From Lysobacter sp. ISL-50 (lineage in GTDB: Bacteria > Pseudomonadota > Gammaproteobacteria > Xanthomonadales > Xanthomonadaceae), in assembly GCF_018612875.1 (NCBI RefSeq), contig NZ_JAGGRI010000035.1, forward strand, positions 1 through 64,000: 64,000 nt of DNA, given 5' to 3'. Under the pieces are notes generated by a model. It made no database searches. It had not been told where the DNA came from and saw nothing but the letters and a program-made list of their open reading frames with translations. Made by a program: the position numbers and the translations under genes. Positions 2,390 through 36,006 of this stretch are shown one piece after another; the stretch's first letter is position 1; the number at the start of each line of letters is the position of its first letter.

Positions 2390-2487
2390 CCCGACTCCCG
2401 ACTCCCGACTCCCGATTCCCGATTCCCGATTCCCGATTCCCGATTCCCGATTCCCGATTCCCGACTCCCGACTCCCGATTCCCGATT
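2390..2487 (-). repeat. 14-unit heptamer array (GGGAATC/GGGAGTC on the minus strand)
   Basis: Fourteen uninterrupted 7-base units. On the plus strand they read CCCGACT x3, CCCGATT x7, CCCGACT x2, CCCGATT x2, with no indel. The array begins a few bases after the mtgA stop codon and lies in its sense orientation as GGGAATC. Shorter arrays of the same unit follow three other genes in this window. Confidence 0.9.
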
Positions 2488-2493
2488 CCCCAA

Positions 2494-3228
2494 TCACTCA
2501 ATCTGCTTCAAATACCCATCCCCGCCGATAAACCGCATCTGCCGCTGGATCGCCCCGGCGCGCCGCTGCACATACGCGCCCGGCTTGGCGATGCTGTAGC
2601 GCTTGGGATTGGGCAGCACCGCGGCCATGCGCGCGGCTTCGGCCGCGCCGAGCCGGCTGGCGTCCTTGCGGTAGTAGGTCCGCGCCGCGGCCTGGGCGCC
2701 GTACACGCCGTCGCCGAATTCGGCGATGTTGGCGTAGACCTCGATGATCCGGCTCTTGGGCCACATCGCCTCGATCAGCACCGTGTACCAGGCCTCGATG
2801 CCCTTGCGCACCCAACTGCGTCCGCTCCACAGAAACAGGTTCTTCGCGGTCTGCTGGCTGATCGTGCTGCCGCCGCGCACCTTGCGGCCGCGCTCGTTGT
2901 TCTTGCGCGCCTTCTCGATCGCCTTGAGGTCGAAACCGAAATGCTCCGCGAAGTTCTGGTCTTCCGAAGCCACCAGCGCCACCGGCACGTTGGGCGAGAT
3001 CTCGTCCAGATCGCGCCAGTCGTGGGCCACGCGGAAATCGAAATCGCCCGAACCCCAGGCCTCCAGCTGGCGGATCAGCATGAACGCCGAGAACGGCGGA
3101 TCGATGAAACGCAGGGTCGCGACCTGCAGGATCGAGGCCAGCGCGAACAGGAACGGCAGGGCCAGCAGCCAGCGGAACCAGCGCCGCAGCCGGCGCGGAC
3201 GCGGCGCGGCTTCCGCCCGCGGCGGCAT
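2494..3228 (-). CDS. mtgA: Monofunctional peptidoglycan glycosyltransferase MtgA
   Basis: A 244-residue GT51 transglycosylase that polymerises lipid II into glycan strands at the outer face of the inner membrane. One membrane anchor near residues 15-40 is followed by the catalytic domain: [17 protein letters not shown] contains the catalytic Glu, then [17 protein letters not shown], and later [20 protein letters not shown]. There is no transpeptidase domain, as expected for MtgA. ATG at 3228 gives the usual family length; an in-frame GTG at 3336 with GGGGGAGG upstream would add 36 residues unlike the family, so it is less likely. Divergent from hslO. Confidence 0.93.
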
Positions 3229-3445
3229 GGCCGGCGCGGATACGCGATCGCTCAAGCCTTGCACCCCAGCGCCCCCGTCCCCACTCTTGCCGCAAGGCGG
3301 ATTGCCCGTGTCGGCGAACCAAGCTCCGATACCCACCGCATTGCCTCAACCTCCCCCTTCACAAGAACTTGCGCATTATCCGCGAAGCCGCGACCGCCGC
3401 GTTCGCCGACCCGTGATTTGCGCGCCGTAACCGCAGAGTACGACG

Positions 3446-4369
3446 ATGACCGATACCGCTTCGCCCCAGGCCGCCGCGCCCGACGACCACGACCGCCTGA
3501 CCCGTTTCATGATCGAAACCGCCGGCGTGCGCGGCGTGCGCGTGCACCTGCACGACACCTGGCGGCAGATCCGCGAACGCGCCGAGTATCCGGCCGCGGC
3601 CGCGGAAATGCTCGGCGAAGCCGCCGCGGCCGCGGCTTTGTTCACCGGCCACGCCAAGGTCGATGGCCGTTTGTCGGTGCAATTGCGCGGCGAAGGCGCG
3701 CTGCGCACCTTGTTCGCCGAATGCACGGCGGCCGGCACCTTGCGCGGCATCGTCCAATTGGCCGAGGACGGCGGCGAGGTCTCGCGCGACCTGCGCGAGC
3801 TGGGCCCGCAGGCGGTATTGGCCATCACCATCGAGAACCCGGCCTTGAACGGCCGCGATCCGGTCCGCTACCAGGGCCTGGTGTCGCTGGAGTCAGACAC
3901 CCTGGCCGGCGCCTTCGAGGACTATTTCCGCCAGTCCGAGCAATTGCCGACCCGCCTGCTGCTGGCCGCCGACGACCGCCACGCCGCCGGCCTGATGCTG
4001 CAGAAGCTGCCCGGCGACGAGGGCGACGACGACGGCTGGGCCCGGGTCGGCGCCCTGTTCGACACCTTGAACACCCGCGAATTGCTGGAGCTGCCGACCG
4101 GCACCCTGCTGACCCGGCTGTTCCACGAGGACGGGGTGCAACTGCTGGGCGGCAAGCCGCTGGGCTTCGCCTGCTCGTGCTCGCGCGAGCGGGTCGAGGC
4201 CATGCTGGTCTCGCTCGGCCGTGAGGAGGCCGATGCCGCCGCCGCCGACGGCCAGGCCCATATCCGATGCGAGTTCTGCGGCCAGAGCTATCGTTTCGAT
4301 CGCAACCAAATTGCCGGCCTGTTCGCGGCCGCGGCCGCGGAAATCCAGGCCCCGCAGCGAGTACAGTGA
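3446..4369 (+). CDS. hslO: Redox-regulated chaperone Hsp33
   Basis: A 307-residue cytoplasmic holdase that is switched on by oxidation. The N-terminal substrate-binding domain includes YQGLVSLESDTL and EDYFRQSEQLPTR. The C-terminal zinc switch is intact, with CSC at 243-245 and CEFC at 275-278 (CxC-X29-CxxC), the four cysteines that bind zinc when reduced and form two disulfides under oxidative stress. It stands alone, divergent from mtgA across about 217 bases. The N terminus has a roughly 15-residue extension before the conserved DRLTRFMIE. Confidence 0.95.
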   Translation: MTDTASPQAAAPDDHDRLTRFMIETAGVRGVRVHLHDTWRQIRERAEYPAAAAEMLGEAAAAAALFTGHAKVDGRLSVQLRGEGALRTLFAECTAAGTLRGIVQLAEDGGEVSRDLRELGPQAVLAITIENPALNGRDPVRYQGLVSLESDTLAGAFEDYFRQSEQLPTRLLLAADDRHAAGLMLQKLPGDEGDDDGWARVGALFDTLNTRELLELPTGTLLTRLFHEDGVQLLGGKPLGFACSCSRERVEAMLVSLGREEADAAAADGQAHIRCEFCGQSYRFDRNQIAGLFAAAAAEIQAPQRVQ

Positions 4370-4391
4370 GGTTGCCGACGGTCGGCCGAAG

Positions 4392-4410
4392 ACGGTTCTG
4401 GGACCGTTTT
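4392..4410 (+). terminator. Possible intrinsic terminator after hslO
   Basis: ACGGTT at 4392-4397 pairs with GACCGT (with a G-T pair) across a small loop and is followed by TTTT at 4407-4410. The stem is short, so this is tentative. Confidence 0.4.
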
Positions 4411-4414
4411 CAGA

Positions 4415-4443
4415 TTGTTAAATAAACATAAACCGGCTATAGT
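4415..4443 (+). promoter_or_regulatory. Sigma-70-type promoter for the exported protein gene
   Basis: TTGTTA at 4415-4420 and TATAGT at 4438-4443 with exactly 17 bases between, in a local A/T-rich patch unusual for this DNA. It implies a leader of about 65 bases before the ATG at 4516. Confidence 0.7.
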
Positions 4444-4515
4444 CGGGTCGAAGAAATGGGGAACTCGGCCGGTTTCATCCGGTCTTAACCACGGTCCGCG
4501 CTTAACACTATTTCA

Positions 4516-5364
4516 ATGCTCAAGCACCTGCGCCAGTTGCCGCTTGTCCTGACGCTCGCCCTAGGCGTGGCGGCGGGTGCGCACGCGCAAGCCAAGCACG
4601 ACACCACCTATTTGCCGGTGTGGAACCAGAACAACGGCAAGCTGGAATACCTGTTGCAGCTCGAGCCGACCGACAAAGCCGCCGGCGCGCGCTGGAAATC
4701 CGGCGCCAACACCTTCGATGCCACGTTGGGCCTGGATTCCGGCGATGGCCTGGGCCTGGTCTGCGATCGCAAGACCGGCCTGGCCGGCGCGATCGGCAAC
4801 CTCGCCAATCACTGCATGCTGGCCGCGCTCGACGAAGACGACGGCCACGACGACAGCCGTCAGCTCAGCGCCGGCGTCAGCCTCAGCCGTCCCGGCGGCA
4901 AGGTCGGCGTGTCCATCGGTTCCGGCCGCGACAGCCTGCCCGGCTGGCTCAGCCCGAACAACCGCGCCAGCCGCGTCGATCAGAACACCCTCACCGTTTA
5001 CGGCCAGAAGAATATCGGCCGCGAAGCGATGGTCTCCATCGGCGGCACCTGGGCCCGCGCCAAGCTGATCCCGGCCGGCGAAATGCCCGGCCTGGCCGAT
5101 CGCTGGAGCAGCAAGAGCATCACCATCGGCGCCGGTTACGGCAATTTCGGCGCCAATATCATCGGCCGCGTGGTCGATACGCCCGGGCAGCCCGGCCAGT
5201 GGGAAGGCCTCGGCGTCGGCTTGACCTGGCGCACGCCGTGGAGCGGCCAGCTCACCGTCGGCGCCGAAAACGTGGTCACCCGCGGCAAGAATCCATTCGC
5301 GCCGGGCAACGGCGAAAAGGACGAGGGCACCGTGCCTTACGTCCGTTACGAACAGGATCTTTGA
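4516..5364 (+). CDS. Exported protein, probable outer-membrane beta-barrel, unknown function
   Basis: 282 residues with a classical signal peptide (MLKHLRQLPLVLTLALGVAAGAHA, cleavage likely after AHA near residue 24). The mature part alternates hydrophobic and polar residues in short strands (VSIGGTWARAKL, SITIGAGYGNFGANIIGRVV, GLGVGLTWRTPWSGQLTVGAENVV) and ends in DL after an aromatic (YVRYEQDL), which resembles an outer-membrane barrel. Two cysteines (near 83 and 99) flank DRKTGLAGAIGNLANHC and may form a disulfide. I do not recognise the family. It has its own promoter at 4415-4443 and is monocistronic. Confidence 0.75.
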   Translation: MLKHLRQLPLVLTLALGVAAGAHAQAKHDTTYLPVWNQNNGKLEYLLQLEPTDKAAGARWKSGANTFDATLGLDSGDGLGLVCDRKTGLAGAIGNLANHCMLAALDEDDGHDDSRQLSAGVSLSRPGGKVGVSIGSGRDSLPGWLSPNNRASRVDQNTLTVYGQKNIGREAMVSIGGTWARAKLIPAGEMPGLADRWSSKSITIGAGYGNFGANIIGRVVDTPGQPGQWEGLGVGLTWRTPWSGQLTVGAENVVTRGKNPFAPGNGEKDEGTVPYVRYEQDL

Positions 5365-6081
5365 TCCCCGCGTCGGACCCTGCTTCGGCGAATCTTGCGT
5401 CTGTCCGGACTCGGCCCTGAGTCCGTAATCCGCATAAATGCCTCGCCGCACCGGCGGAAAGTTCAAGGGCGCCCGCCCTGCGCGCACGTCACTGGCGTGA
5501 GCTTCGATCTCGTCGCGAAGTCTTGAGTCCAGTCCCGGTCTCGCTGCCTGTCATCCCCGCCAATAGCCTGTCCGCACCTGGGCACGGCTAACGAATCGGC
5601 TTGCCCCGATCAAGCATTTCGATGCCCTGATCAAGGCCGCTGCATCGACCCTGCCGCGCAATGTCGCACTCGAATTCGCATGCGTATCGCCCGGTTTGCG
5701 CACCGCGCAGCGCACTCGACCGCGGACAGCAGAAATTGTGTGTTTTTGTACGTAGGTGCTGGCACGGCAGGCTGCCGCCTGCATTTGCGGCTATGGCCGG
5801 TCGCCGGCATCCACGGCCAGGCCAGCGACACCGATAAATGAACAGGGGATTTCCTGCGGATTCCGCCGCACCCTCCACCGACGCCACACAAAAATACGCA
5901 AAAGTACGGTCTTCGCGGGCGGGAGCCGGTACTGCCCCCACGTCACAAACCGACACTTAACGACACTTTAATTTTTGAGGACTCACGGTTAGCATCGGCA
6001 AACCTTGCTGGTCTTGGCGTCTTATTTGACACCTCCGGCCGGGCTACACGGGTACATCAGACCGATTTTCGGAGAGAGAGA
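5365..6081. other. 717-base gene-free stretch and receptor leader
   Basis: No convincing gene. A perfect 7-bp hairpin (CGGACTC at 5406-5412, GAGTCCG at 5419-5425) follows the exported protein gene but lacks a T-tract. The middle (about 5430-5900) shows nothing recognisable. The right end holds the promoter of the first TonB-dependent receptor and its GGAGAGAGAG ribosome site at 6071-6080. Confidence 0.6.
5957..5995 (+). promoter_or_regulatory. Promoter of TonB-dependent receptor 1, with element shared with receptor 2
   Basis: TTAACGACACTTTAATT at 5957-5973 matches 16 of 17 bases at 9165-9181 upstream of the second receptor. In both, TTTAAT (5967-5972) lies 17 bases before a -10-like hexamer (TAGCAT, 5990-5995). 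Identical geometry at two otherwise unrelated leaders argues for a shared promoter or operator. Confidence 0.65.
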
Positions 6082-9060
6082 ATGACTTTCAAGACCACCC
6101 AGCTCCGCGACGCGATCACCTTCGCGCTCGCAGTGAGCTCGACGGCCCTCGCCGGCGCCGCCGTAGCGCAGGAAGCGAACGCCCCCGCCACCAAGGAAGC
6201 GACCACGCTCGACCGCATCGAGGTGACCGGTTCGCGTATCCGTCAGGTCGATCTGGAAACCGCTCAGCCGGTACTGTCGATCACGCGCGCGGACATCGAG
6301 AAGCAGGGCTTCCAGTCCGTCGCCGACATCCTGCAGAACATCTCCGCCACCGGCGCTCCGACCATCAGCCGCGCACAGCCGCTGCTGGCCGGCGAAAACG
6401 TCGGCGGCCAGTTCATCAGCATGCGTAACCTGGGCGCCACGCGCACCCTGATCCTGGTCAACGGCAAGCGCCTGGGCATCAGCACCAGCGGCCTGCAGGA
6501 CATTTCGCTGATCCCGACCTCCGCGGTCGAGCGCATCGAAGTGCTGAAGGACGGCGCCTCGTCGATCTACGGCTCCGACGCCATCGCCGGCGTGGTCAAC
6601 ATCATCACCCGCACCAATTTCGAAGGCGCTTCGGCCAATGCCTACTTCGGCCAGTACAGCCAGGGCGACGGCGCGACCACTCGTGCCGACTTCGTGCTCG
6701 GCTTCACCGGCGATCGCGGCTCGCTGACCGCCGCCGTCGAATACCGCAAGGAAGACGAAGTCTTCGCGCGCGACCGCGAGTTCGGCGCGTATCCGCAGGG
6801 CCCGATGCATCCCGACCGCGGCTGGACCACGGTCAGCCAGTGGGGCGTGCTGAATCTGCCGACCGCCGCCGGCGGCAACCGCGTGCTCAACGCCGACGGC
6901 AACTGGCGCCTGCTCTCGAACTATCACGCGCAGAACGCCGACACCGGCGGCACCGCGGCCAACACCGCCGGCTCGACCGTCGACAAGAGCAACACCAACC
7001 TGCAGACGCACCTGCGTACGCCGCTGGAAAGCCGTTCGCTGTTCGTCAACGGCGTGTTCGACATCACCGACAAGGTCCGCTTCCGCAGCGACATGCTGTA
7101 TTCGTCGCGCGATGCCGAGCGTCAGGTCGCCGGCTATCCGTTCCAGAGCGGCTCGGCCGGCCCGGTTCCGGGCGGCTTCAAGATGTCGAAGGACAGCTAC
7201 TACAACCCGGTCGGCACCCTGTGGGGCCCCGCCAACGGCCAGACCGCGCAGGACATCAACTTCTGGCGCCGTACCTGGGAAGTGCCGCGCGTCGATAAGT
7301 CCACCTCGACCACCTGGCGCTTCTCGGCCGGCCTCGACGGCAGCTTCGACATCGGCGAGCGCAGCTTCGACTGGGACGTGGGTTACCTGTTCAACAACAA
7401 CAAGGTCACGCAGGAAAACTACGGCAACCTGAACATCGAGCGCACCAAGCAAGCGGTGGGCCCGTCGTTCCTCAATGCCAACGGTGTGGTCCAGTGCGGC
7501 AGCGCCGCCAACCCGATCCCGTTGACCCAGTGCACCCCGTGGAATCCGTACATCCCGTTCGGCCGCGTGGGCGACGGCGGCTTGACCGGCAACAAGGCGC
7601 TGCAGGATTTCCTGTTCCAGCGCCTGAACTCCAGCGGCGAAACCAAGACCAACGTCTACAGCGCCAACCTGTCGGGCTCGTTGTTCGCCCTGCCAGGCGG
7701 CGACCTGGGTTTCGCGGTCGGCTATGAACACCGCAAGGAAGAAGGTCGCTTCATTCCCGACGCTCAGGCGGTTACGGGCAACTCGACCACCCTCGCCGGC
7801 GGCCCGACCAGCGGTAGCTATTCGGTCGATGAGTTCTTCGTCGAACTCGCTATCCCGGTGTTGGCCGATCTGCCGGGCGCCAAGGAGCTGAGCTTCTCGG
7901 TCGCCAGCCGTTATTCGGACTACAGCACCTTCGGCGACACGGTCAACAACAAGTTCGGCTTCAAGTGGAAGCCGATCGACTCGTTGCTGTTCCGCGGCAC
8001 CTACGCCGACGGCTTCCGCGCTCCGACCATCAACGACCTGTACGGCGGCGGCTCGCAGACCTTCGCGTCCTTCACCGATCCTTGCGACACGGTGTTCGGC
8101 GCGGCCAAGGGCAACCCGACGATTCAAGCCGCTTGCGGCGCGCGCGGCGTGCCGAATCCGGCGACGTTCCGTCAGCTGCAGCAGGGCTTCGTGCCCTCGA
8201 CCACGGCCAGCCCGCAGACGCCGGTGGCGTTCTTCTCCGGTTCCAACGCGAACCTGATTCCGGAAACCTCCAAGTCCAAGACCCTGGGCGTGGTGTGGAG
8301 CCCGGAATTCGTCGAAGGCCTGAACGTCAGCCTCGACTGGTGGAAGGTCAAGATCGAAGACACCATCGTGGGCGACTCGCCGACGCAGATGCTCGACGAC
8401 TGCTATGTGCGTAACGACGCCAGCCGCTGCACCGCCTTCACCCGCGATCCGGTGCTGGGCTATGTCAACAGCCTGACCTTCACCAGCATCAATGCCGGTT
8501 ATCGTGAAGCCGAAGGCTACGACCTCGAGTTGAACTACCGCCTGCCCACCAGCATCGGTAACTTCAACCTCAACTGGCAGACGACCTACACCGTCGGCGA
8601 CGAGATCAAGACCGACACCAACCCGAACGGCAAGCCGATCCAGTTGGTCGGTTACGCGGTCAACCAGAGCAACCTGGGTACCTTCCGCGTGCGTTCGAAT
8701 GCCAGCCTGAGCTGGGAGAAGGGGCCGCTGAGCGCAACCTGGGGCGCGCGTTACTACTCGTCGCAGAAGGAAGCCTGCCTGTCGGCGGCGCTGTTCCCGA
8801 GCGAGTGCGACAATCCGACCCACCGTGCTCCGGATACCGGCGGCTCGGTTCGCGCGCTCAACAAGCTGGGCTCGAACACCTTCCACGACCTCGAGTTCCG
8901 CGTCGCCACCCCGTGGAATGCCACCGTGGCGATCGGCGCAAACAACGTGTTCGATCACCTCGGCCCGACCCTATACAGCGCACCGAGTTCGAGCACGGCC
9001 TATTCGGGCCAGTTCGACATCGGTCGCTTCGTGTACATGAAGTACCAGCAGCGCTTCTAA
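6082..9060 (+). CDS. TonB-dependent receptor 1
   Basis: 992-residue outer-membrane receptor. Signal peptide (MTFKTTQLRDAITFALAV, cleavage near AVAQ at about 30), a TonB-box-like region TTLDRIEVTGSRI, a plug domain (about 45-170) with MRNLGATRTLILVNGKRL and VEVLKDGASSIYGSDAIAGVV, then a 22-strand barrel with the receptor motif YADGFRAPTINDLYGGG, ending in the aromatic C terminus KYQQRF. Substrate cannot be told; the size and the VTGSRI start resemble large Xanthomonadaceae receptors for carbohydrates or peptides rather than siderophore receptors. The next receptor shares its N terminus, SD (GGAGAGAGA) and promoter element, so they are paralogs. Followed by a strong terminator, hence monocistronic. 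Confidence 0.93.
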   Translation: MTFKTTQLRDAITFALAVSSTALAGAAVAQEANAPATKEATTLDRIEVTGSRIRQVDLETAQPVLSITRADIEKQGFQSVADILQNISATGAPTISRAQPLLAGENVGGQFISMRNLGATRTLILVNGKRLGISTSGLQDISLIPTSAVERIEVLKDGASSIYGSDAIAGVVNIITRTNFEGASANAYFGQYSQGDGATTRADFVLGFTGDRGSLTAAVEYRKEDEVFARDREFGAYPQGPMHPDRGWTTVSQWGVLNLPTAAGGNRVLNADGNWRLLSNYHAQNADTGGTAANTAGSTVDKSNTNLQTHLRTPLESRSLFVNGVFDITDKVRFRSDMLYSSRDAERQVAGYPFQSGSAGPVPGGFKMSKDSYYNPVGTLWGPANGQTAQDINFWRRTWEVPRVDKSTSTTWRFSAGLDGSFDIGERSFDWDVGYLFNNNKVTQENYGNLNIERTKQAVGPSFLNANGVVQCGSAANPIPLTQCTPWNPYIPFGRVGDGGLTGNKALQDFLFQRLNSSGETKTNVYSANLSGSLFALPGGDLGFAVGYEHRKEEGRFIPDAQAVTGNSTTLAGGPTSGSYSVDEFFVELAIPVLADLPGAKELSFSVASRYSDYSTFGDTVNNKFGFKWKPIDSLLFRGTYADGFRAPTINDLYGGGSQTFASFTDPCDTVFGAAKGNPTIQAACGARGVPNPATFRQLQQGFVPSTTASPQTPVAFFSGSNANLIPETSKSKTLGVVWSPEFVEGLNVSLDWWKVKIEDTIVGDSPTQMLDDCYVRNDASRCTAFTRDPVLGYVNSLTFTSINAGYREAEGYDLELNYRLPTSIGNFNLNWQTTYTVGDEIKTDTNPNGKPIQLVGYAVNQSNLGTFRVRSNASLSWEKGPLSATWGARYYSSQKEACLSAALFPSECDNPTHRAPDTGGSVRALNKLGSNTFHDLEFRVATPWNATVAIGANNVFDHLGPTLYSAPSSSTAYSGQFDIGRFVYMKYQQRF

Positions 9061-9085
9061 GCATTTCTGCTGCACCGCAACACAA

Positions 9086-9115
9086 ACACGGCTCCCTCGG
9101 GGGCCGTGTTTTTTT
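9086..9115 (+). terminator. Intrinsic terminator of receptor 1
   Basis: A 10-bp stem starting ACACGGC at 9086 with a four-base loop and closing GCCGTGT, ending in seven T (9109-9115). Textbook rho-independent terminator. Confidence 0.9.
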
Positions 9116-9164
9116 ATGTCTGCGCGACCCCAGTCGCATGCCGTCATGCGACTTCAATCAGGCT

Positions 9165-9203
9165 TTAACAACACTTTAATTATTCCTCCAAGCCGTCTAC
9201 TAT
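9165..9203 (+). promoter_or_regulatory. Promoter of TonB-dependent receptor 2, with shared element
   Basis: TTAACAACACTTTAATT (9165-9181) repeats the receptor 1 element. TTTAAT (9175-9180), a 17-base spacer and TACTAT (9198-9203) keep the same spacing, and the ATG follows about 97 bases later (87 for receptor 1). Confidence 0.65.
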
Positions 9204-9299
9204 CGGGCCGGCTTTGCCAATTTAGGCCTTCAGTTATGCGCCGTTTGGCCAGCCCCTTTGCATGGGACCCGTTCGTTCAGGACAGACTTGGAGAGAGAG

Positions 9300-12203: not shown

Positions 12204-12228
12204 TAAGAAACACGTAATCCGAGTCATT

Positions 12229-12256
12229 AAAGGCGGGCTTCGGCCCGCCTTTTTTT
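12229..12256 (+). terminator. Intrinsic terminator of receptor 2
   Basis: AGGCGGGC (12231-12238), a TTCG tetraloop and GCCCGCCT (12243-12250), followed by a T run to 12256; two flanking A-T pairs extend the stem. Strong terminator. Confidence 0.92.
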
Positions 12257-12378
12257 GTCTGCGGTTTGGTTGGGCGACGACCGCGGATTTCGAAAGCGGC
12301 GGGCATGGCTTCGGGCGAGAGGGGCCTCGCCGTGCGCGTGCTGCTCGTTGATCGCCGGGCCTGACGGCGACGTTAACC

Positions 12379-18810: not shown

Positions 18811-19189
18811 GGACGACAAGTTTAACCATACGGCAGGGTCGGGAACAGTACGCAGTGCAGCAAAAAGCGGGGATTCGAGATCGGGGAATCGGGATTCGTG
18901 AAAAACAGCGGGAAAATCGCGGGCTAATGCTGCAATGCAGCAGAAAAACAAGGGGCGAAACGCCGCAACGCCTTGATGCGAGCGGTGTCCGCATGTGTCT
19001 AGCGAAGCGAAGGCCGGCTCGGTTGACAGCACCGGATTGCAATTCCATACTCGGCCGTATGTTACCCGTTTGATGCCAGCGTTTGAATGTCGATCGGACC
19101 GGCTGCGCAAGCCGATCCGGCCGAATTCAGCGCCGACATCACACGAGCCCCACTAGCCTGAGTCCAGCCGCATCCTCTGGAGCGCTCTG
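18811..19189. other. Divergent tetR/fadE control region
   Basis: 379 bases without a gene. It contains a CATACGG half-site at 18827-18833 just upstream of tetR, a short degenerate patch of the GGGAATC/GGGATTC heptamer at 18869-18897, and the fadE promoter with an overlapping palindrome at 19023-19061. The fadE ribosome site GGAG lies 11 bases before its ATG. Confidence 0.6.
19023..19061 (+). promoter_or_regulatory. fadE promoter overlapped by a candidate TetR operator
   Basis: TTGACA (19023-19028), 17 bases, then CATACT (19046-19051) form a good sigma-70 promoter. The -10 is the left arm of the palindrome CATAC-TCGGCC-GTATG (19046-19061). A half-site of the same sequence, CATACGG, occurs at 18827-18833 in front of tetR. 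A repressor bound here would block fadE and possibly tetR itself. Confidence 0.6.
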
Positions 19190-21784: not shown

Positions 21785-21871
21785 CCGTCATTCCCGCGAA
21801 CGCGGGAATCCAGCGACTTTCGTGCAGCAGCGACAAAGGCACTGGATTCCCGCGTTCGCGGGAATGACGGG
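21785..21871. repeat. Inverted pair of family A palindromes
   Basis: CCGTCATTCCCGCGAACGCG... at 21785-21813 and its complement-oriented copy CTGGATTCCCGCGTTCGCGG... at 21842-21871, separated by 28 bases. Each folds alone, and the two can also pair as one long stem. Same element as at 2151-2320. Confidence 0.8.
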
Positions 21872-25435: not shown

Positions 25436-25509
25436 CTGACGCCCGGCGACCGCTTCGTTTCAGACCAACAATCGGAGCGTGGGGGATTCGCTCTCGCCCT
25501 GAAAGAGAC

Positions 25510-25860: not shown

Positions 25861-25990
25861 CGGGCGTGCTCCATAAGCTGAGATCGAAGCGAGCAGCATA
25901 CGGCTTCGCACGGCCGGCGCCGAGATCCGCGCCACGGCTTGGGACCAACCGCGAGATCGCGTCCGTCACCCCGCACGACGCCCCGCGAAA

Positions 25991-28464: not shown

Positions 28465-28675
28465 GCGCGCGCTCCGCGATCGCCCGCATACGAGGTTTCA
28501 TATTCGCCGCGCACCGCGCCCGATGGCACACGCACGCGTTCGCATCCGCACCGCAGGCACGGTTCGCGCATGATCCTGAGCTCCATTTTCCAACACACAA
28601 GCTAGCGCCGCGCTCAAAGCGGCGGCGTCTGCGGATGGTCATCCCGACCTTTGGCACAGGCCGCGGATGCGTTGC

Positions 28676-29827
28676 TCAGTTCCGCTCGAGTTCCCGCAGC
28701 ACCTCAGGGCGCTGCGCGATCGGCCGGGACGGATCGAGCTGCACGTAGGTCGCGCCGGTGCGCGCCAGCGCCGCGGCCGCCGCGGCGGAGCGCTGGTCGT
28801 CGACCAGCACACACACCCGGCGCCCCGCTAGGCGTCCCGCTGGAGCTTCCTGCGCCGCCTTGGCCAGGGCTGCGACCAGCGCGTCCTGTTCGGAGCGCGG
28901 GTCGAACGCCGTTGCGAACACCAATGCCCCGGTTTCGCGGTCGGGGTTCGACAAGGTCTCGACGATCTGCCGCAATTCGGGCAAGTCCGCGCGGCCGGCT
29001 TGCATCTGGATCCGCCGCAACCCCGGCTCACGCTCGCCTGCGTCGGGATCGAGCCGACGGCAAGCCTCGGACAGGTAGTGATTCCAGTCGCCGTAATCGC
29101 CCGTCGCCGGCGCCAGCAGCGGCGCGCGCCGGACCGCCTTCGTCGCCTCCCAAAGCACCTGCTCTCTGGCGATGGCCGGCGCGGCTTGGACATAAGCGCG
29201 CCGCAGTGCGGTCTCATAGCCGGATGCACGCCGTCCAGTCGTTGCATCCAGCGCCAGTTCGACATAACCGGCGGGCTCGTAGCTGCGGTCGTTGTTGTTG
29301 GGAATCGCCACGCGCAGCAGCACCTGGCGCCCGTCGGCCGAAAACCTGTGCTCGCGGCCCCAGCCGATCGAGCTGACCGAGCGCGGTAAGGCGCGCACAT
29401 AATCGGCCGGCAGCAATTGCTCCAGGCCCAGCGAGCGCACCATGCGGCCGGCGGTGTCGTACAGCACGACCACGCGTGGGCCGTGGCCGGCGCCGTACCA
29501 GTCGTTGAAGGTCGCCGTCCGACCGTCGTCCGACACCACGAGCCAGGGCGGCGCCACCGGATTGCGCAGCGGTCCGCGCCATACCTGCACCCAGCCCGCC
29601 CCTTCCCGGCGTTCCATGCGGGCTTGCGCAGCCTTTTCCGGCGGAACGTCTTTTCGCTCGCGCGGCGCAGGGTCCGCCGACGGCGTCACCGTCAGCCGAT
29701 AGCGCCCGTTGCCGGAGAGGTAAGTCTTGACGTGCGGCGGCTCGAAAAGATCGGCACGCGCCGGCCGCCACGGCCACAGGCTGGCCAGCATCAGCACAAC
29801 GGCGCACAGCATCGCATTGCGGTCCAT
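28676..29827 (-). CDS. Exported protein of unknown function
   Basis: 383 residues with a signal peptide (MLCAVVLMLASLWPWRPARA, cleavage near residue 25). The first half has beta-rich segments with GNGRYRLTVTPS, WLVVSDDGRTATFNDWYG and HGPRVVVLYDTAGRMVRSLGL, as in proteins that describe a value with its time course; the C-terminal part (GALVFATAFDPRSEQDALVA, GRRVCVLVDDQRSAAAAAAL) looks like a small alpha/beta domain. I do not recognise the family. GGAG lies ten bases before ATG at 29827. It lies between the metallophosphoesterase (50 bases upstream) and transporter 1. Confidence 0.75.
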   Translation of the reverse strand: MDRNAMLCAVVLMLASLWPWRPARADLFEPPHVKTYLSGNGRYRLTVTPSADPAPRERKDVPPEKAAQARMERREGAGWVQVWRGPLRNPVAPPWLVVSDDGRTATFNDWYGAGHGPRVVVLYDTAGRMVRSLGLEQLLPADYVRALPRSVSSIGWGREHRFSADGRQVLLRVAIPNNNDRSYEPAGYVELALDATTGRRASGYETALRRAYVQAAPAIAREQVLWEATKAVRRAPLLAPATGDYGDWNHYLSEACRRLDPDAGEREPGLRRIQMQAGRADLPELRQIVETLSNPDRETGALVFATAFDPRSEQDALVAALAKAAQEAPAGRLAGRRVCVLVDDQRSAAAAAALARTGATYVQLDPSRPIAQRPEVLRELERN

Positions 29828-29877
29828 CTGCCTGTGCTCCATATCCGTCAGCCGGCGCGGCCACCTTAGCGCGAAGA

Positions 29878-30759
29878 TCAGCGCCGCGCCGGTTCCCTCG
29901 CCGCCGCGCGCAAGGTCAACCGCGAAATCTCCGGCGGCACCCCGAACCGCACCGGCAGGATGCTGGTGCCGATGCCGGTGGAGACGAACAGATGCTTGCC
30001 GTGATCGATCAGGTAGCCGCCGGCATAACGCTGTTCGGCCGGCAGTACCGGCGTGCCGATCCACGGCAATCTGACCTGGCCGCCGTGAGTGTGGCCGGCG
30101 ATGGTCAGCGATGCGCGCGGCGGAATGTCGGGGAACAGATCCGGGTTGTGGGTCAACGCGATCGCCGGGGCGTCGTCGCTGACGCCGGCGAAGGCGCCGG
30201 CGACGTCGTGACGGGTTTCCCATTTGTCGCCGATGCCGACGATCCACACCCGGCAGGCGCCGAACTGCGCGGCCTGGGCCTGGTCTTCCAGCACGATCAC
30301 GCCGGCCGATTCCAACGCGGCGCGCACCTTGTGGCCGTCCTTCCACCAATCGTGATTGCCGAGCACGGCGTAGACCGGTTTGCGCGCGGTCAGCGGCTTG
30401 AGATGCGGCGCGAGTTGGTCGGCGGAGATGTAGGTGCCGCCGAGCACGCTGAGTATCACGTAGTCGCCCGCCATCAGCACCGCGCTGGCATCGCTGGCGG
30501 CGAGCCTGGCGACGATGTCGTCGAGCCTGTCCAGGCCGTTATGCGGCGAGCCGGTGTGCAGGTCGGCGACCACGTCCAGGCGCAAGCCCTCGCATTCGCG
30601 CGACCAGTGCGGCAAGGCGAAGACGTAGTCGCGCTCGACCAGTTGCCGCGGTTCCCAGAAGAATCCCCAGGCCAGGCACGCCAGCGCGCACAGCACCAGG
30701 GTGACGAACAAGCGCTGCAACCATTGTTGACGCGGCCACGGCCGCCAGCCACGTCTCAT
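29878..30759 (-). CDS. Membrane-anchored metallophosphoesterase (YaeI-like)
   Basis: 293 residues. One N-terminal membrane helix (LFVTLVLCALACLAWGFFW) and a calcineurin-type phosphoesterase domain with all metal motifs: VVADLHTGS, LMAGDYV, VLGNHDWW, ALTHNPD and IAGHTHGGQVRLP. This order matches YaeI/LpxH-like enzymes that hydrolyse phosphodiester or pyrophosphate bonds, often on lipids; the substrate is not known. The stop region of transporter 2 overlaps its start (ATGA), so it is translationally coupled to that gene. Confidence 0.9.
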   Translation of the reverse strand: MRRGWRPWPRQQWLQRLFVTLVLCALACLAWGFFWEPRQLVERDYVFALPHWSRECEGLRLDVVADLHTGSPHNGLDRLDDIVARLAASDASAVLMAGDYVILSVLGGTYISADQLAPHLKPLTARKPVYAVLGNHDWWKDGHKVRAALESAGVIVLEDQAQAAQFGACRVWIVGIGDKWETRHDVAGAFAGVSDDAPAIALTHNPDLFPDIPPRASLTIAGHTHGGQVRLPWIGTPVLPAEQRYAGGYLIDHGKHLFVSTGIGTSILPVRFGVPPEISRLTLRAAAREPARR

Positions 30760-32144
30760 GCGCGAGCGCTCTCGCCCGCTTCGGACGCGCCGCCGCGCTG
30801 CACCCAGCGCGCGACGTTCCAGCCGATCACGCCGGCGCCGGCCGCGACCACCGCGCTGATGCCGGCCAGCCCGGCGACGCCGACGCCCAGGCTGCGCAGG
30901 CCGACCATCGTCGTCGCCACCGCCACGTCGCCGAAGCGCCAGGCTGCGGTGTCGACCGCGTTCTTGCCCTTGTAACGCAGGGTGCGCGCGGCGCTGGAGA
31001 ACAGGCTCTCGCGCGCCGGACCGACCATGCCGTAGGCCAGTCCGCGACTGACCACCAGCGCCATCGCCACCGCCGGCAGCGGCCCGATCATCGCCGCCAT
31101 GCCCGCCGGCAACGACGCGATCAAGGCGCCGTAGGCGGGAAACAGTTCGGTCAAGGGCGCGTGCGCATCGGCGACCGAGGCCGACAGCGTCAGGAACATC
31201 ACCGTCACCACCGACCACACGCCGATCACCGAGGCTGCGCCGCGTCGCGACAGCAGCCACGGCGTCAACAGCACCTGCGCGCTCAGCGCCACGATGTTGG
31301 TCATCAGGTCCAGGTCGGCGGCGAAGCGGGTGCGCGAGACCGCGTCGGTGAAGGTCGCCTTGGAATAATCCACGACCAGGCCGTAGTTGACCGTGCCGAT
31401 CCAGTCGCCCAGCAGCAGCAGGATCGCCATCGAACGCATGAACGGATTGGCGAAGACCTGCTTGATGCCGTCGAACATGCCGCCGCCGATCGCGGCCTCG
31501 TGGCTGCTCTCGAAACGGCGCGTGCCGTGCACGCGCGACCACTGCCCGAGCAGGATCACGAACACCAGCGCCAGCGCCAGCAGCGAGGCCGACACCACCA
31601 GCAGCGGCGCCACGCCGATCACGCCGACCAGCCGCCCGGTCAACGCCGGCCCGACCAGCGAGCCGACGGTGCCGCCGACGGCGATGATCGGGAACAGCCG
31701 GCGCGCCTGGCCTTCGTTCCAGATGTCGGTCATGAAGCTCCAGAACACCGACACCACGAACAGATTGAACACGCTGATCCAGACGAAGAACACCGTGCCG
31801 AGCACGCGCGGACTCAGCGGCCCGTGCGCGCCGAACAGCGGCACGAAACCGATCAGGCAGGCGATGAAGAAGCCGTACACCACCGGCACCACCACCCGCC
31901 GCGGATAGCGCGAGACGAGGGCCGAGAACACCGGCGTCAACGCCAGCGTCGCCAGCAAGGTGGCAGCGTAGAACCACGGCAACTGAGTAGAGCCGACCAC
32001 GGCGCTGAGCTGGTCGCGCACCGGCCGGATCACGTAGTACGCGGTGAGTACGCAGAAAAAATAACCCACCGATAAAGCCACCGCGCGCCATTCGCCGGTA
32101 TGGACCCGTCCGGTGGACAGGCTGGCGCCTTGAACTGCCGACAT
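30756..32144 (-). CDS. MFS/ATP-ADP translocase-like transporter 2
   Basis: 462 residues, about 12 membrane helices. Key segments: SVGYFFCVLTAYYVIRPVRD, TVFFVWISVFNLFVVSVFWS, FMTDIWNEGQARRLFPIIAV and ARTLRYKGKNAVDTAAWRFGD; the last has a counterpart in transporter 1 (RPSRYKGKAVIDTAIFRGTD). So the two are paralogs, diverged well beyond recent duplication. Start ATG at 32144 has GGAG seven bases upstream; the upstream frame to 32318 is not conserved-looking. First gene of the leftward cluster, divergent from the GMC oxidoreductase. Confidence 0.82.
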   Translation of the reverse strand: MSAVQGASLSTGRVHTGEWRAVALSVGYFFCVLTAYYVIRPVRDQLSAVVGSTQLPWFYAATLLATLALTPVFSALVSRYPRRVVVPVVYGFFIACLIGFVPLFGAHGPLSPRVLGTVFFVWISVFNLFVVSVFWSFMTDIWNEGQARRLFPIIAVGGTVGSLVGPALTGRLVGVIGVAPLLVVSASLLALALVFVILLGQWSRVHGTRRFESSHEAAIGGGMFDGIKQVFANPFMRSMAILLLLGDWIGTVNYGLVVDYSKATFTDAVSRTRFAADLDLMTNIVALSAQVLLTPWLLSRRGAASVIGVWSVVTVMFLTLSASVADAHAPLTELFPAYGALIASLPAGMAAMIGPLPAVAMALVVSRGLAYGMVGPARESLFSSAARTLRYKGKNAVDTAAWRFGDVAVATTMVGLRSLGVGVAGLAGISAVVAAGAGVIGWNVARWVQRGGASEAGESARA

Positions 32145-32431
32145 CGCGTCGCTCCGTGAGTGAACCGCCGGAGGCCGGTCGGCTCTGCAGATCGTGGATT
32201 GCGGATCAGCGGCGCGGGAGCCGTCGCGATGCGTTCCCGTCGTCGCCTGCGCGGCCGCCACTGCCGGCCGTGCAGGTTTGCCGGCACGGTAGCCCAAGGC
32301 GTCGGCGGCCGCCACCACGGCGTGTGGCGGAACCGGGCGCGTCCGCTGTTGGGAGCATTTGCTCTAGTTTTGCCGCTTACGGTCGCCCGATCCGCGCGGC
32401 AACCGATGCCGCGCCCCTGCGGGATGCACCA

Positions 32432-34024
32432 GTGCCCACCGAGTTCGACTACATCATCATCGGCGCCGGTTCGGCCGGTTGCGTGCTCGCCAATCGCCTC
32501 AGCGAAGACCCCGATACCCGGGTACTGCTCATCGAAGCCGGTCCGCGCGACCTGCACCCCTTCATCCACATGCCCGCCGGCGTGTCCAAGCTGGTCAACA
32601 AGAAGGGAGTGAACTGGGACTACGACACCGCGCCGGAGCCGAACCTGGACAACCGGGTGCTGTGGTGGCCGCGCGGCAAGGTGCTCGGCGGTTCGAGTTC
32701 GATTAACGCCATGTGCTACATCCGCGGCGCGGCCGGCGACTACGACGGCTGGGCCGCCGCCGGCGCCAGCGGCTGGGACTGGAACAGCGTGCTGCCCTAC
32801 TTCCGCCGCAGCGAACGCAACAGCCGCGGCGACGACGCCCTGCACGGCAGCATGGGCCCGTTGTACGTATCGGATCTGCGCTACACCAACCCGTTGTCGG
32901 CCGCCTTCATCGAAGCCGCGCGCCAGGCCGGTTATGCGGCCAACAGCGATTTCAACGGCCCCAGCCAGCACGGCTTCGGCTATTACCAGGTGACGCAGAA
33001 GAACGGCGCGCGCTGCTCCAGCGCGGTCGCCTACCTGGACCCGGCGCGCGAACGCCGCAATCTGCACATCGTCACCAAGGCGCTGGTCAGCCGCATCACC
33101 ATCGAAAACGGCCGCGCCACCGGCGTGGTCTACAGCAGCGGCGGCCGCGCCTATCACCAGCACGCGCAGCGCGAAGTGCTGCTCAGCGGCGGCGCGATCA
33201 ATTCGCCGCAGTTGCTGATGTTGTCGGGCGTCGGTCCCGCCGATCAGCTGCGCCGGCACGGCATCGAGGTCGTGGCCGACGCGCCGCAGGTCGGGCAGAA
33301 CCTGCAGGACCATCTGGACATCTGCACGCTGCAGCACTCCACCCAGCGCGTCACCTACGATCGCCTCAGCGACGTCGTGGTCGCCTTCAACTATTACCTG
33401 CGCGGTCACAGCGGCCCGGGCAGCAGCAACATCGCCGAGGCCGGCGGCTTCGTGCGCTCGGATCTGGCGCCGGACGATCGCGCCGACGTGCAGTTCCATT
33501 TCGTCCCGGCGATGCTCGACGATCACGGCCGCCATCGCCTCAGCGGCGACGGCTACACCGCCCATGCCTGTTTCCTGCATCCGCGCAGCCGCGGCCATGT
33601 CGAACTGGTCAGCGCGAGCGCCGGCGACAAAGTCCGCATCAACGCCAATTATCTGAGCGATGCGGAAGGCTTCGACATGAAGATGATGGTCGAGTGCGCC
33701 AAGCTCTCGCGCACCTTGTTCAAGCAAAAAGCCTTCGATGCGTACCGCGGCAAACCGATCTTTCCCGCGCGCGAAGATCTGAGCGACGCCGAGCTGGCCG
33801 AGTTCGTGCGCGCCAAGGCCGAGAGCGTGTATCACCCGGTCGGCACCTGCCGCATGGGCGACGACGCGGCTTCGGTGGTGGATTCGCAACTGCGCGTGCG
33901 CGGCATCGACGGCCTGCGGGTGATCGATGCCTCGGTGATGCCGAGCCTGGTCAGCGGCAATACCAATGCGCCGACGATCATGATCGCCGAGCGCGCTTCG
34001 GATTTGATTCGCGGGCGGGGTTGA
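32432..34024 (+). CDS. GMC family FAD-dependent oxidoreductase (choline dehydrogenase-like)
   Basis: 530 residues. FAD-binding motif FDYIIIGAGSAGCVLANRL with the ribose-binding Glu in LLIEAGP, the GMC signature GKVLGGSSSINAMCYIRG, second signature GAINSPQLLMLSGVG, and the C-terminal active-site region ESVYHPVGTCRMG plus SGNTNAPTIMIAERA. Such enzymes oxidise alcohols to aldehydes; the closest recalled relatives are BetA-like proteins but no betaine genes are nearby. Start GTG at 32432 (VPTEFDYI) is chosen because the conserved fold begins at once; GGGA lies about eight bases upstream. Confidence 0.9.
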   Translation: MPTEFDYIIIGAGSAGCVLANRLSEDPDTRVLLIEAGPRDLHPFIHMPAGVSKLVNKKGVNWDYDTAPEPNLDNRVLWWPRGKVLGGSSSINAMCYIRGAAGDYDGWAAAGASGWDWNSVLPYFRRSERNSRGDDALHGSMGPLYVSDLRYTNPLSAAFIEAARQAGYAANSDFNGPSQHGFGYYQVTQKNGARCSSAVAYLDPARERRNLHIVTKALVSRITIENGRATGVVYSSGGRAYHQHAQREVLLSGGAINSPQLLMLSGVGPADQLRRHGIEVVADAPQVGQNLQDHLDICTLQHSTQRVTYDRLSDVVVAFNYYLRGHSGPGSSNIAEAGGFVRSDLAPDDRADVQFHFVPAMLDDHGRHRLSGDGYTAHACFLHPRSRGHVELVSASAGDKVRINANYLSDAEGFDMKMMVECAKLSRTLFKQKAFDAYRGKPIFPAREDLSDAELAEFVRAKAESVYHPVGTCRMGDDAASVVDSQLRVRGIDGLRVIDASVMPSLVSGNTNAPTIMIAERASDLIRGRG

Positions 34025-34029
34025 TTTTC

Positions 34030-34050
34030 GGGAATCGGGAATCGGGAATC
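34030..34050 (+). repeat. GGGAATC heptamer array, 3 units
   Basis: Three exact GGGAATC units starting six bases after the TGA of the GMC gene, in its sense orientation. Same heptamer as 2390-2487. Confidence 0.85.
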
Positions 34051-34085
34051 GCAGCAAGTTTCACCGCGCCCCCGCCAGAACGATT

Positions 34086-34217
34086 CCCCCCTTTGAAAAA
34101 GGGGGGCCAGGGGGGATTCGCTTTTGATCTTCCCGCACCCCGAAGCAAATCCCCCGGCGCAGCCGGCTTCTCGCCTGCCTCAGCAACGCAGGCGCCAGCC
34201 CCCTTTTTCAAAGGGGG
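34086..34217. repeat. Family B repeat, copy 3
   Basis: CCCCCCTTT-GAA-AAAGGGGGG at 34086-34106, GGGGGATTCGCTTTTGA at 34111-34127, CAAATCCCCC at 34146-34155 and CCCCCTTT-TTC-AAAGGGGG at 34199-34217. The order and spacing repeat copy 1 closely. Confidence 0.85.
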
Positions 34218-34410
34218 CGAATTATCCGGGCCGGCTACACCAAAACCTCCCTCCACTGGCCGCTTGCCGGCACTGCCAACGTTTGCGCAATCGGCCCTCA
34301 GCCCGGCCATTAATCCCTGAAAAATCAGAATCCTGAATGCGGTTGTTGTTCAATTCCCTGAGATCGGAGCTAGAATCGGCTCATCCCGGTCCACGCAGGC
34401 GCTGCGAGCG

Positions 34411-35838
34411 ATGAAACACGACTCCTCCCGACGCTCACTCAACCCCTGGCGCCTGGGCACACTCGCTGCCCTGCTTACGCTCACCCTGGGGTCCACGGCG
34501 CAGACGTCGCTGCGCTGGCACACTCCCGATCCATCGCAGCCCACCGTGTCGCAAGCGGACGTGGCGCGCTCGCAAGGCATCGATGGCACTGTCGCGCCGC
34601 AAGGCCTGCAGATCGGTTCCAACTCCAACAACCTCAATCCGCGCGTGATGCCGCTGGCCGCCGACTTCGACGTGCGCCAGTTCGAAGCGATGGCGCAGGC
34701 GCTGGTCGCCGACCAACGCATTCCGGGCATGGCCATGGCCATCGTCCACAACGGCCAGATCCTCAGCGCGCGCGGCTACGGCATCACCGACGTGCGCAAC
34801 GCCGAGCCGATCGACGCCCACACCGTGTTCCGCCTGGCCTCGCTGTCCAAGAGCTTCGCCGGCACCCTGACCGGACTGCTGGTCAACGACGGCACGCTGC
34901 GCTGGGACAGCAAGCTGGTCGATTACATGCCCAGCTTCCAGTTGGTCGATCCCAACGCCGCGCGCACCGTCACCGTCGCCGACCTGCTCAGCCATCGCGT
35001 CGGCCTGACCCACAACACCTACGACCGCGATCTGGAAAACTACGCCGACTACCGCGTGCTCACCCAGAAGCTGGCCTACGCGCCGATGAGCTGCCAGCCC
35101 GGCACCTGCTACGGCTACCAGAACATCGCCTTCAGCCTGATCGGCGACGTGGTCTTCGCCGCCACCGGCGATTTCTACAGCCAGGAAGTGCAACGCCGCC
35201 TGTTCAAGCCCCTTGGCATGAACGACGCCAGCCTGGGCCTGGAAGGCATCACCTCGGCCGCGCGCTGGGCCAAGCCGCACGTGCGCGCGCGCGGCGGCTG
35301 GGCGTCGCTGACGCCCAAGCCGACCTACTACCAACTGCCGCCGGCCGCCGGCGTCAACGCCAGCGCCAGCGACATGGCGCAATGGCTGATCGCGCAGACC
35401 GGGCATCGCCCCGACGTGCTGCCGCTGCCGCTGCTGGCGACGCTGCATCAGCCGCTGGTGGAGACGCCGACCGAGATCCGCGGCTCCAGTTGGCGCCGTC
35501 AGCGCCTGGGCTCGGCCGGTTATGCGCTGGGTTGGCGCGTGTTCGACTACGCCGGCCACCGCGTGGTCTTCCACGCCGGCGCGGTGCAGGGCTATCGCGG
35601 CATGGTCGCGATGCTGCCCGAGCGCGACCTCGGCATCGCCGTGCTGTGGAACAGCGAGAGCGGCCTGCCGACCGGCCTGTTGCCGACCCTGCTCGATCGC
35701 GCCATCGGCATGCCGGTGCAGCGCTGGCTCGACGTGGACGGCTTCGACGACCCGGGCCTGTACGCATCGGAAGGCGTGAACCCGCAGCAGGACCCGACCG
35801 GCAGCAACGCGCAGAAGTCCACCGCGGCGCCGCACTGA
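34411..35838 (+). CDS. Exported serine hydrolase, class C beta-lactamase/DD-peptidase fold
   Basis: 475 residues with a signal sequence (LGTLAALLTLTLGSTAQ, about residues 15-31) and an unusual linker of about 50 residues. Beta-lactamase fold motifs: SxxK as FRLASLSKSFAG (nucleophile Ser near 145), YxN as YGYQNIAFS, and a third motif HAG in VFHAGAVQGYRGM. The HxG form is typical of esterases and DD-peptidases (EstB, AmpH types) rather than of AmpC (KTG). Likely acts in the periplasm on peptidoglycan or esters. SD is not obvious. Followed within seven bases by a GGGAATC array. Confidence 0.88.
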   Translation: MKHDSSRRSLNPWRLGTLAALLTLTLGSTAQTSLRWHTPDPSQPTVSQADVARSQGIDGTVAPQGLQIGSNSNNLNPRVMPLAADFDVRQFEAMAQALVADQRIPGMAMAIVHNGQILSARGYGITDVRNAEPIDAHTVFRLASLSKSFAGTLTGLLVNDGTLRWDSKLVDYMPSFQLVDPNAARTVTVADLLSHRVGLTHNTYDRDLENYADYRVLTQKLAYAPMSCQPGTCYGYQNIAFSLIGDVVFAATGDFYSQEVQRRLFKPLGMNDASLGLEGITSAARWAKPHVRARGGWASLTPKPTYYQLPPAAGVNASASDMAQWLIAQTGHRPDVLPLPLLATLHQPLVETPTEIRGSSWRRQRLGSAGYALGWRVFDYAGHRVVFHAGAVQGYRGMVAMLPERDLGIAVLWNSESGLPTGLLPTLLDRAIGMPVQRWLDVDGFDDPGLYASEGVNPQQDPTGSNAQKSTAAPH

Positions 35839-35844
35839 GGGGGC

Positions 35845-35879
35845 GGGAATCGGGAATCGGGAATCGGGAATCGGGAATC
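35845..35879 (+). repeat. GGGAATC heptamer array, 5 units
   Basis: Five exact units from seven bases after the TGA of the serine hydrolase, in sense orientation; a sixth, GGGAAAA, is degenerate. Faces the array at 35979-36006 across the shared terminator. Confidence 0.9.
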
Positions 35880-35902
35880 GGGAAAAGCATGAAACGAAAA
35901 GG

Positions 35903-35923
35903 CCCGCCATTGGCGGGTTTTTT
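35903..35923. terminator. Bidirectional intrinsic terminator
   Basis: CCCGCC (35903-35908) pairs with GGCGGG (35912-35917), followed by T6-T7 on the plus strand and preceded by AAAA (35897-35900), which gives a short T run for leftward transcripts. It serves the convergent serine hydrolase and SRPBCC genes. Confidence 0.85.
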
Positions 35924-35978
35924 CATTTATTTGCCAGTCTCAGTCGCACTCGCAAGCCGCGATGCCTGCCGCTTTAAC

Positions 35979-36006
35979 GATTCCCGATTCCCAATTCCCG
36001 ATTCCC
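35979..36006 (-). repeat. GGGAATC heptamer array, 4 units on the minus strand
   Basis: Four units on the minus strand (one reads GGGAATT), starting eight bases after the stop of the SRPBCC gene, in its sense orientation. Confidence 0.88.

Follow-up and report, generated by a model that had tools for sequence, protein, structure and literature searches.

GGGAATC heptamer arrays at gene ends in Lysobacter: copies of a dispersed, polar repeat arm

Why should tandem arrays of one heptamer stand directly behind the stop codons of unrelated genes? The question is raised by a 64,000-nucleotide stretch of the Lysobacter sp. ISL-50 genome (the window), in which five patches of the GGGAATC repeat occur and the 14-mer GGGAATCGGGAATC is found 14 times, compared with 0.00 expected from 100 dinucleotide shuffles. 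The initial annotation had placed four arrays right after stop codons, each in the sense of its own gene. Both statements were confirmed, and the measured gaps are 3-8 nt. On the minus strand, 14 units (nine GGGAATC and five GGGAGTC; 2393..2490) start 3 nt past the stop codon (2494-2496) of an mtgA-like transglycosylase gene (2494..3228, minus strand, Transgly domain, start approximate). This array is single, as a search for a facing partner arm found none. That it creates the stop codon of mtgA is not supported, since array-less relatives have a stop at the corresponding place. On the plus strand, three units (34030..34050) follow the GMC oxidoreductase gene, the first base lying 5 nt past the stop.

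The next two arrays belong together. Five units plus a partial unit (35845..35879, plus strand) begin 6 nt past the stop of the serine hydrolase gene, and four units, one of them GGGAATT (35979..36006, minus strand), begin 8 nt past the stop of the SRPBCC gene. They are the left and right arms of one inverted pair between two convergent genes. Each arm carries an inner box, GGGAAAAGC on the left (35880..35888, plus strand) and GTTAAAGC on the right (35971..35978, minus strand), both assigned from the sequence and box statistics. Enclosed by the pair is a terminator-like hairpin with a T run (35901..35923, plus strand; assigned from the sequence and an RNA fold), and a similar hairpin is also present in relatives without arms. 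The fifth patch, two clean units GGGAATCGGGATTC (18884..18897, plus strand), lies 73 nt upstream of the called tetR start and had been regarded as an exception. It is indeed antisense to tetR, but it does not break the rule, since its G strand is directed away from tetR and thus from the nearest gene end.

With no more than five patches, the window by itself would be compatible with chance placement or a small-sample artefact. The survey covered 829 kb of the window's genome, 800 kb from a congener and, from named species, 80 loci, and all counts rest on gene calls from a caller seeded with six window genes. Within 50 nt after stop codons, the G-rich strand was found 131 times and the C-rich strand 5 times; before start codons, the C-rich strand prevailed by 55 to 3. 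A sense array lies at most 40 nt past 129 stops, at a distance of 3-6 nt in 91 of them, and 104 of 141 stop-side arms start within 8 nt of the stop, where uniform placement predicts 8.1. The nearer ORF was the one on the 5' side for 180 of 199 intergenic arms, with a nominal p = 4e-34 that treats the arms of a pair as independent, which they are not. The reversed pattern used as control gave 0 hits in the window's genome and 0 in all sampled stretches. The placement and orientation of the arrays are thus confirmed to be far from chance, and the chance explanation is excluded by these numbers; we give it practically no weight. The orientation bias and stop proximity first seen in the window hold on this wider search. 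As a complete rule, however, "after stops" falls short, because the C-rich strand also precedes starts, where arms are found 8-13 nt before the start codon. The general rule is that the G-rich strand is transcribed on leaving an ORF and the C-rich strand on entering one. Avoidance of SD-like or rut-like sequence as the only cause of this polarity fails in convergent regions; there, the arm's own sense stop was the nearer one for 53 of 54 arms.

The array is only part of a composite arm, approximately GNC-(GGGAATC)~4-GNNAAAGC. Four units are the mode (56 of 102 arrays), and three-unit arms are also present. This mode and the recurrence of flanking boxes speak against an origin solely by expansion of a bare repeat. 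On the best explanation, each window array is one copy of a polar repeat arm dispersed between genes, and all belong to the GGGNATC repeats of Rehm et al. (PMC4692102), which were described in 2015 from Xanthomonas with their stop/start placement and convergent pairs. Those repeats have at least two units, including at least one GGGAATC, and so do the window arrays. They are mostly intergenic with four units commonest; here, 15 of 92 arms overlap called ORFs in the window's genome and 8 of 53 in the genome G001, and reading frames run through arrays. The sense placement after stops and antisense placement before starts is reproduced by the strand counts above, and the convergent close pairs by neighbouring arms, which face each other in 104 cases (102 distinct), face apart in 1, and point in the same direction in 13. 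The placement rule is already published for Xanthomonas (PMC4692102). Added here are the composite arm, facing pairs that enclose unrelated sequence, arm-less relatives, and dialects in other genera. The strings AAAAGC and GCTTT of the arm boxes do not occur in the available part of that paper. A known RNA family was rejected as the identity of the arrays, as Rfam at gathering score gave nothing over the arrays in the window and four further stretches; the only matches were two tRNAs, both in stretch L042.

As to what the arms do, the paper of 2015 leaves function open, and the roles suggested in the initial annotation (3' processing, RNA decay, transcription-coupled expansion, protein binding) are all possible. 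We tentatively propose, with a probability of about 0.4, that the arms are RNA-level gene-boundary elements that fold directly behind the stop codon. As soon as the polymerase is past that codon, the emerging transcript would form a long stem where a partner arm is present and a G-rich structure where it is absent. The fold could then fix the mRNA end, either as an obstacle to 3'-to-5' exonucleases or as the mark of a processing or termination point, by analogy with the REP/BIME hairpins of enterobacteria, which act comparably at mRNA ends. Slippage may lengthen single arrays afterwards, such as the one after mtgA. In favour of this reading, we count the strand biases at stops and starts, the stop proximity, the facing pairs, their strong RNA folding (z of -8.7 and -6.8 in two examples), and the recurrence of sites. 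Rehm et al. (PMC4692102) also report that quadruplex-capable arrays coincide with transcript starts or stops more often than control repeats do. Against it stands that the same authors found no effect on gene regulation. A role at 3' ends does not by itself account for the start-side arms just ahead of start codons, and there are array-poor congeners.

About two thirds of the arms have a facing partner, so that the pair encloses an intergenic region. Further points against the boundary element come from the pairs themselves. In the window's genome, 22 pairs between called genes were counted; 4 of them separate divergent genes, and neither mRNA should then hold both arms. Arms in G000, G087, and the named set are no more complementary to their own partner than to other partners. 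An excess appeared in G001 for the arms only (p = 0.04) and in the mixed set of relatives (p = 0.0005), and the latter can be explained by differences between genomes. The inner 12-nt flanks gave no pairing covariation in any of the five sets tested. Hence, locus-specific pairing covariation within genomes is unsupported. Mixed-dialect pairs also exist. Among the relatives, the two arms of a pair do agree in type (Fisher p = 0.0017), but the loci of this set are orthologues of chosen sites.

The missing covariation fits the main rival, dispersal without host function, which we hold possible but doubtful. Here, arms would be copied into gene junctions by a putative mobile process or by microhomology-driven template switching and survive only outside ORFs; slippage and gene conversion would keep them alike, and the polarity would stem from the copying mechanism. 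Arrays that lie 3 nt past the stop are in register with that stop in 16 of 23 cases, which speaks for such copying. So does the patchy distribution: the arm on the 3' side of mtgA is absent in 11 of 12 relatives, and array counts within the genus range from 0 to 273. As several congeners have few or no arrays, the element is dispensable in them. On the other hand, only 3 short hits at E <= 0.01 were obtained among 28 enclosed loops; as the loops are unrelated, no mobile core of the MITE-like kind is seen. RAYT-driven REP mobility is likewise rejected, as array numbers do not follow RAYT (Y1_Tnp) counts: G006 has no PF01797 match yet 93 exact three-unit hits, and G018 has 4 matches and 2 hits. 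We also know of no copying process that accounts for an orientation tied to gene ends.

That pairs recur at given junctions in several species, and to some extent in several genera, is a further argument against dispersal. Of ten chosen operon junctions, pairs are also present at 10 of 10 in G006 and 9 of 10 in G001, and the same junctions occur with and without arms among relatives. In other genera, some of these junctions carry pairs built from another heptamer (GGGATTC in G087), so that the heptamer varies by genome while the sites recur, and one polarity rule is valid for two heptamers. Genome-wide dialects suggest homogenisation, as dispersal would have it. They also raise the broader idea of a class of gene-boundary elements in Lysobacterales, with conserved architecture and sites, a genome-specific heptamer dialect, and the G-rich strand on the way out and the C-rich strand on the way in. 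We consider this unlikely; if true, it would point to either a so far undescribed trans factor or active rewriting, in each case able to read both the heptamer and the gene ends and co-evolving with the dialect.

The four-unit mode and the nearly invariant G tracts among the 56 four-unit arms fit a G-quadruplex element, in which four G tracts would fold at the DNA or RNA level and influence transcription, as proposed by Rehm et al. (PMC4692102), who reported quadruplex formation in vitro by CD in K+ for the Xanthomonas repeats. Quadruplex formation alone is weakened by facing pairs at three junctions of G061 whose units, for instance GTGATTG, have broken G tracts (read by eye; a 60 kb sample of G061 contained no arms). 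The recurrent flanking boxes are not needed by a quadruplex, and three-unit arms occur. We regard this explanation as improbable. The exit-G/entry-C rule at both stops and starts would also suit a directional transcription insulator. Here, Rho would load on the C-rich strand and halt stray polymerases on their way into an ORF, from whichever side they come; in operons, this site would be masked through pairing with the G-rich arm upstream of it. A partner is indeed present for 67 of 82 start-side arms compared with 83 of 143 stop-side arms (p = 4e-4), but 15 start-side arms have none. Rho would be expected to prefer C-rich sequence of the arm kind. The insulator is, in our judgement, likewise improbable. 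Translational coupling across the stem at SD-less starts is a further conceivable role.

The comparison between relatives makes the function of the repeat testable, as it offers ten operon junctions with and without arms and swappable dialects. Should the elements define mRNA ends or keep out stray transcription, they are a little-known gene-boundary mark in a whole bacterial order. Should they have no function, they show dispersal with strict polarity in a clean form.

Among known systems, REP/BIME elements with their RAYT transposases are dispersed intergenic inverted repeats at 3' UTRs and operon junctions. The arms share these features, but they are heptamer arrays instead of one short palindrome, and the dependence on RAYT is not seen in the counts of G006 and G018. 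Correia/NEMIS-type MITEs are intergenic, have terminal inverted repeats, and can be transcribed as hairpins, as can arm pairs, whereas the stretches enclosed by arms share no conserved sequence from locus to locus. The DNA uptake sequences of Neisseriaceae are short, have lineage-specific dialects, and often form inverted pairs near gene ends. The arms resemble them in dialects and pairing but have tandem units and a density of 50-111 per Mb in three sampled genomes. The TAACTGA repeats of Beggiatoaceae (PMC4679880) are likewise intergenic heptamers with an orientation bias relative to genes; they point mostly toward start codons and carry stop codons, whereas the arms lie mostly after stops and reading frames pass through them. 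Closest are the repeats of Rehm et al. (PMC4692102), with the same heptamer, intergenic position, four-unit mode, sense placement up to 50 nt after stops or antisense placement before starts, and convergent pairs. Two species share them at the same genes, and sites recur here in a like manner. The present arms differ in that they come from Lysobacter-type genomes and other genera and are composite, with flanking boxes and heptamer dialects; arm-less relatives were included in the comparison.

Heptamer arrays in the sense orientation lie just past four stop codons in the window, as the initial annotation had stated. The array of mtgA (Transgly domain) starts 3 nt after the stop, and those of the GMC oxidoreductase (GMC_oxred domain), the serine beta-lactamase-like hydrolase (Beta-lactamase domain) and the SRPBCC-type protein (Polyketide_cyc2 domain) start 5, 6 and 8 nt after it, each in its gene's own sense. 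Its claim that chance placement is unlikely also holds, as 0 of the window's four arrays are expected there at random. The patch at 18884–18897, with two clean units, is antisense to tetR and lies 73 nt upstream of its called start; the position upstream of tetR was described correctly, but the patch is no exception, since its G strand points away from tetR, and start-side arms (those before start codons) are generally antisense. The hydrolase and SRPBCC arrays form a single facing pair, i.e., two neighbouring arms pointing at each other, which encloses a terminator-like hairpin.

Other repeats were also recorded in the window. REP-like palindromes CGTCATTCCCGCG...CGCGGGAATGACG occur at 2152–2318, beside the mtgA array, and at 21786–21870; such palindromes trail several long single stop-side arrays, that of mtgA and others in further stretches. 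Two copies of a dispersed-looking palindromic element, CCCCCTTTGAAAAAGGGGG, lie past the GMC array (34083–34222), and this element also adjoins arrays in other stretches. A small, lysine/alanine-rich histone-like protein is encoded at 36829–37275 (minus strand), with roughly 30 repeats of a 12-bp unit (36886–37244). A hexamer array at 39037–39112 consists of GTCGGT x8.5 adjoining TCAGCG x3.3, and a 32-bp unit containing TGTGGGAGGGGCTTCAGCCCC occurs twice at 58827–58889; sequence similar to this unit lies past the GMC gene of two relatives, G008 and G004.

The 5.9-Mb genome contains 116 exact three-unit matches, and a three-unit search for the reversed heptamer gave 0. Orientation and stop distance were tabulated in an own-genome sample of 829 kb (the window, 34 stretches at or beside arrays and 6 picked regardless of arrays), 800 kb of evenly spaced sequence from congener G001, and 80 loci of named genomes retrieved, on either strand, with the composite-arm pattern. 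Gene calls came from a codon model seeded with six window genes; start positions are approximate. The tabulation that the initial annotation had suggested genome-wide gave, on these samples, a strong G-rich bias past stops: 1–50 nt downstream, the mRNA strand is G-rich in 36, 22 and 73 cases (this genome, G001 and named loci, respectively) and C-rich in 1, 0 and 4. Ahead of starts, it is C-rich in 22, 9 and 24 cases and G-rich in 2, 0 and 1; these arms are antisense to their gene. Of 141 stop-side arms, 104 start no more than 8 nt past the stop (8.1 under uniform placement), and the array lies 3–6 nt downstream at 91 of the 129 stops having a sense array within 40 nt. A single rule covers both kinds of arm: the G-rich strand points away from the gene end closest to it. 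Pooled, the nearest ORF is on the 5' side of the G strand for 180/199 intergenic arms, a count whose p-value is only nominal, since arms of one pair are not independent, and which leaves out ORF-overlapping arms (15 in this genome, 8 in G001, 0 in G087 and 6 named) and stretch-edge arms (1, 1, 1 and 9). A putative Rho insulator would agree with this entry/exit rule, but we consider it unlikely. In convergent regions, 53/54 arms are nearer their own sense stop; avoidance of SD-like or rut-like sequence near starts is therefore not the whole reason, and was rejected as sole cause.

Three data sets contain 23 stops whose array begins 3 nt downstream; 16 of these stops read as a degenerate unit zero in register (TRA.NTC, e.g., TGAATC-GGGAATC). 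Five start codons lie 8–12 nt past a C-rich arm (L042:3692, L051:10035, L043:1694, L054:7924, L063:663), and no Shine-Dalgarno sequence is evident at these starts or in relatives.

Exactly four units are present in 56 of the 102 arrays of this genome and G001. The outer flank of these 56 has C at −1 in 52 and G at −3 in 42, the second unit ends in G in 19, and the inner flank approximates GNNAAAGC. An [ACG]A[AG]GC box falls within the first 12 nt past the array in 49/102 arrays (24/56 four-unit ones), compared with 7 arrays for the next such interval and 17 for the outer flank; among random 12-mers, 7.4% contain it. Neighbouring arms 15–200 bp apart face each other in 104 cases (102 distinct), point apart in 1 and the same way in 13, counted over four sets, one of which comprises orthologues of chosen sites. 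The enclosed loops (31–127 nt) are unrelated to one another, with 3 short matches at E<=0.01 in 28 loops. A relaxed partner search located a facing partner for 150/225 arms and a wrongly oriented arm in that place for 12; of the single arms, 60 are stop-side and 15 start-side. The two examples that were folded gave strong predicted stems (z -8.7 and -6.8).

Among 12 relatives, 11 have no array past mtgA, and that of G006 is short and partly degenerate. G006, G001 and G016 also have the hydrolase-SRPBCC pair, and so does G003, there with GGGATTC-type units; the pair was not seen in G002, G004, G005, G007, G008, G009, G014, G017, G018 and G019. Several of the relatives without the pair keep a similar terminator, and the arms thus flank pre-existing sequence at this junction. 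At the nuoD-nuoE junction, 30 of the family's 56 matched loci were read: 14 have an ATGA overlap, 11 a gap of 13–48 nt, 1 a longer gap and 1 was unreadable; this genome, G061 and G087 show the arm-loop-arm arrangement. Ten junctions, picked for the framed pair that this genome carries there, had pairs by eye in 10/10 (G006), 9/10 (G001), 8/10 (G003), 6/9 (G087) and 3/8 (G061) cases; G002, with zero exact three-unit matches, shows remnants or nothing. We take these junctions to precede nuoE, rbfA, lepB, recO, fliQ, efpL, zipA, fadA, a DUF1820 gene and a DUF4198 gene.

Genomes have their own heptamer dialects. GGGAAT-type arms make up 78/92 in this genome, and GGGATT-type arms 15/17 in 340 kb of G087, from another genus (GGGAAT versus other, Fisher p=4e-10); the polarity rule holds for all 16 intergenic G087 arms that have a called gene on both sides. 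In G006, both arms have GGGATTC-type units at 5/10 pairs. The units of G061 are GTGATTG/GTGATTC-like at three junctions (a 60-kb sample of this genome contained no arms), which weakens the explanation that a quadruplex alone accounts for the arrays, one that we consider unlikely. Mixed-dialect pairs occur at lepB of G001 and in 3/29 pairs of this genome. Within genomes, arms match their own partner no better than other loci's partners, G001 arms alone giving p=0.04; complementarity is thus largely accounted for by the dialect of the genome.

The anatomy, polarity, spacing, persistence and dialects of the arms are direct observations. For their role, we tentatively propose (probability roughly 0.4) an RNA-level gene-boundary element: once the stop codon is passed, it would fold and fix mRNA ends. 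Dispersal of arms without function is possible and ranks close behind, because many relatives have no arms and no locus-specific covariation was seen.

An exact three-unit array occurs in 22 of 59 relatives searched, with counts from 0 to 273, and in 15/19 congeners. A scan for the composite of arm and box, which may omit records close to the window's genome, gave 84 stretches of named genomes. Most of these are from Xanthomonas; other carriers are Rhodanobacter, Luteimonas, Rehaibacterium, Pseudoxanthomonas, Lysobacter MAGs, unnamed MAGs and, outside the order, a Nevskia MAG. The 80 named loci yielded 78 distinct matches; of the 63 that are intergenic, 61 lie closer to the ORF on the 5' side, 54 of these 61 being sense and past a stop. 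Rehm et al. (2015; PMC4692102) reported these repeats from two Xanthomonas genomes and identified no function for them. The window's arrays therefore belong to a known kind of repeat, the one already described there in Xanthomonas.
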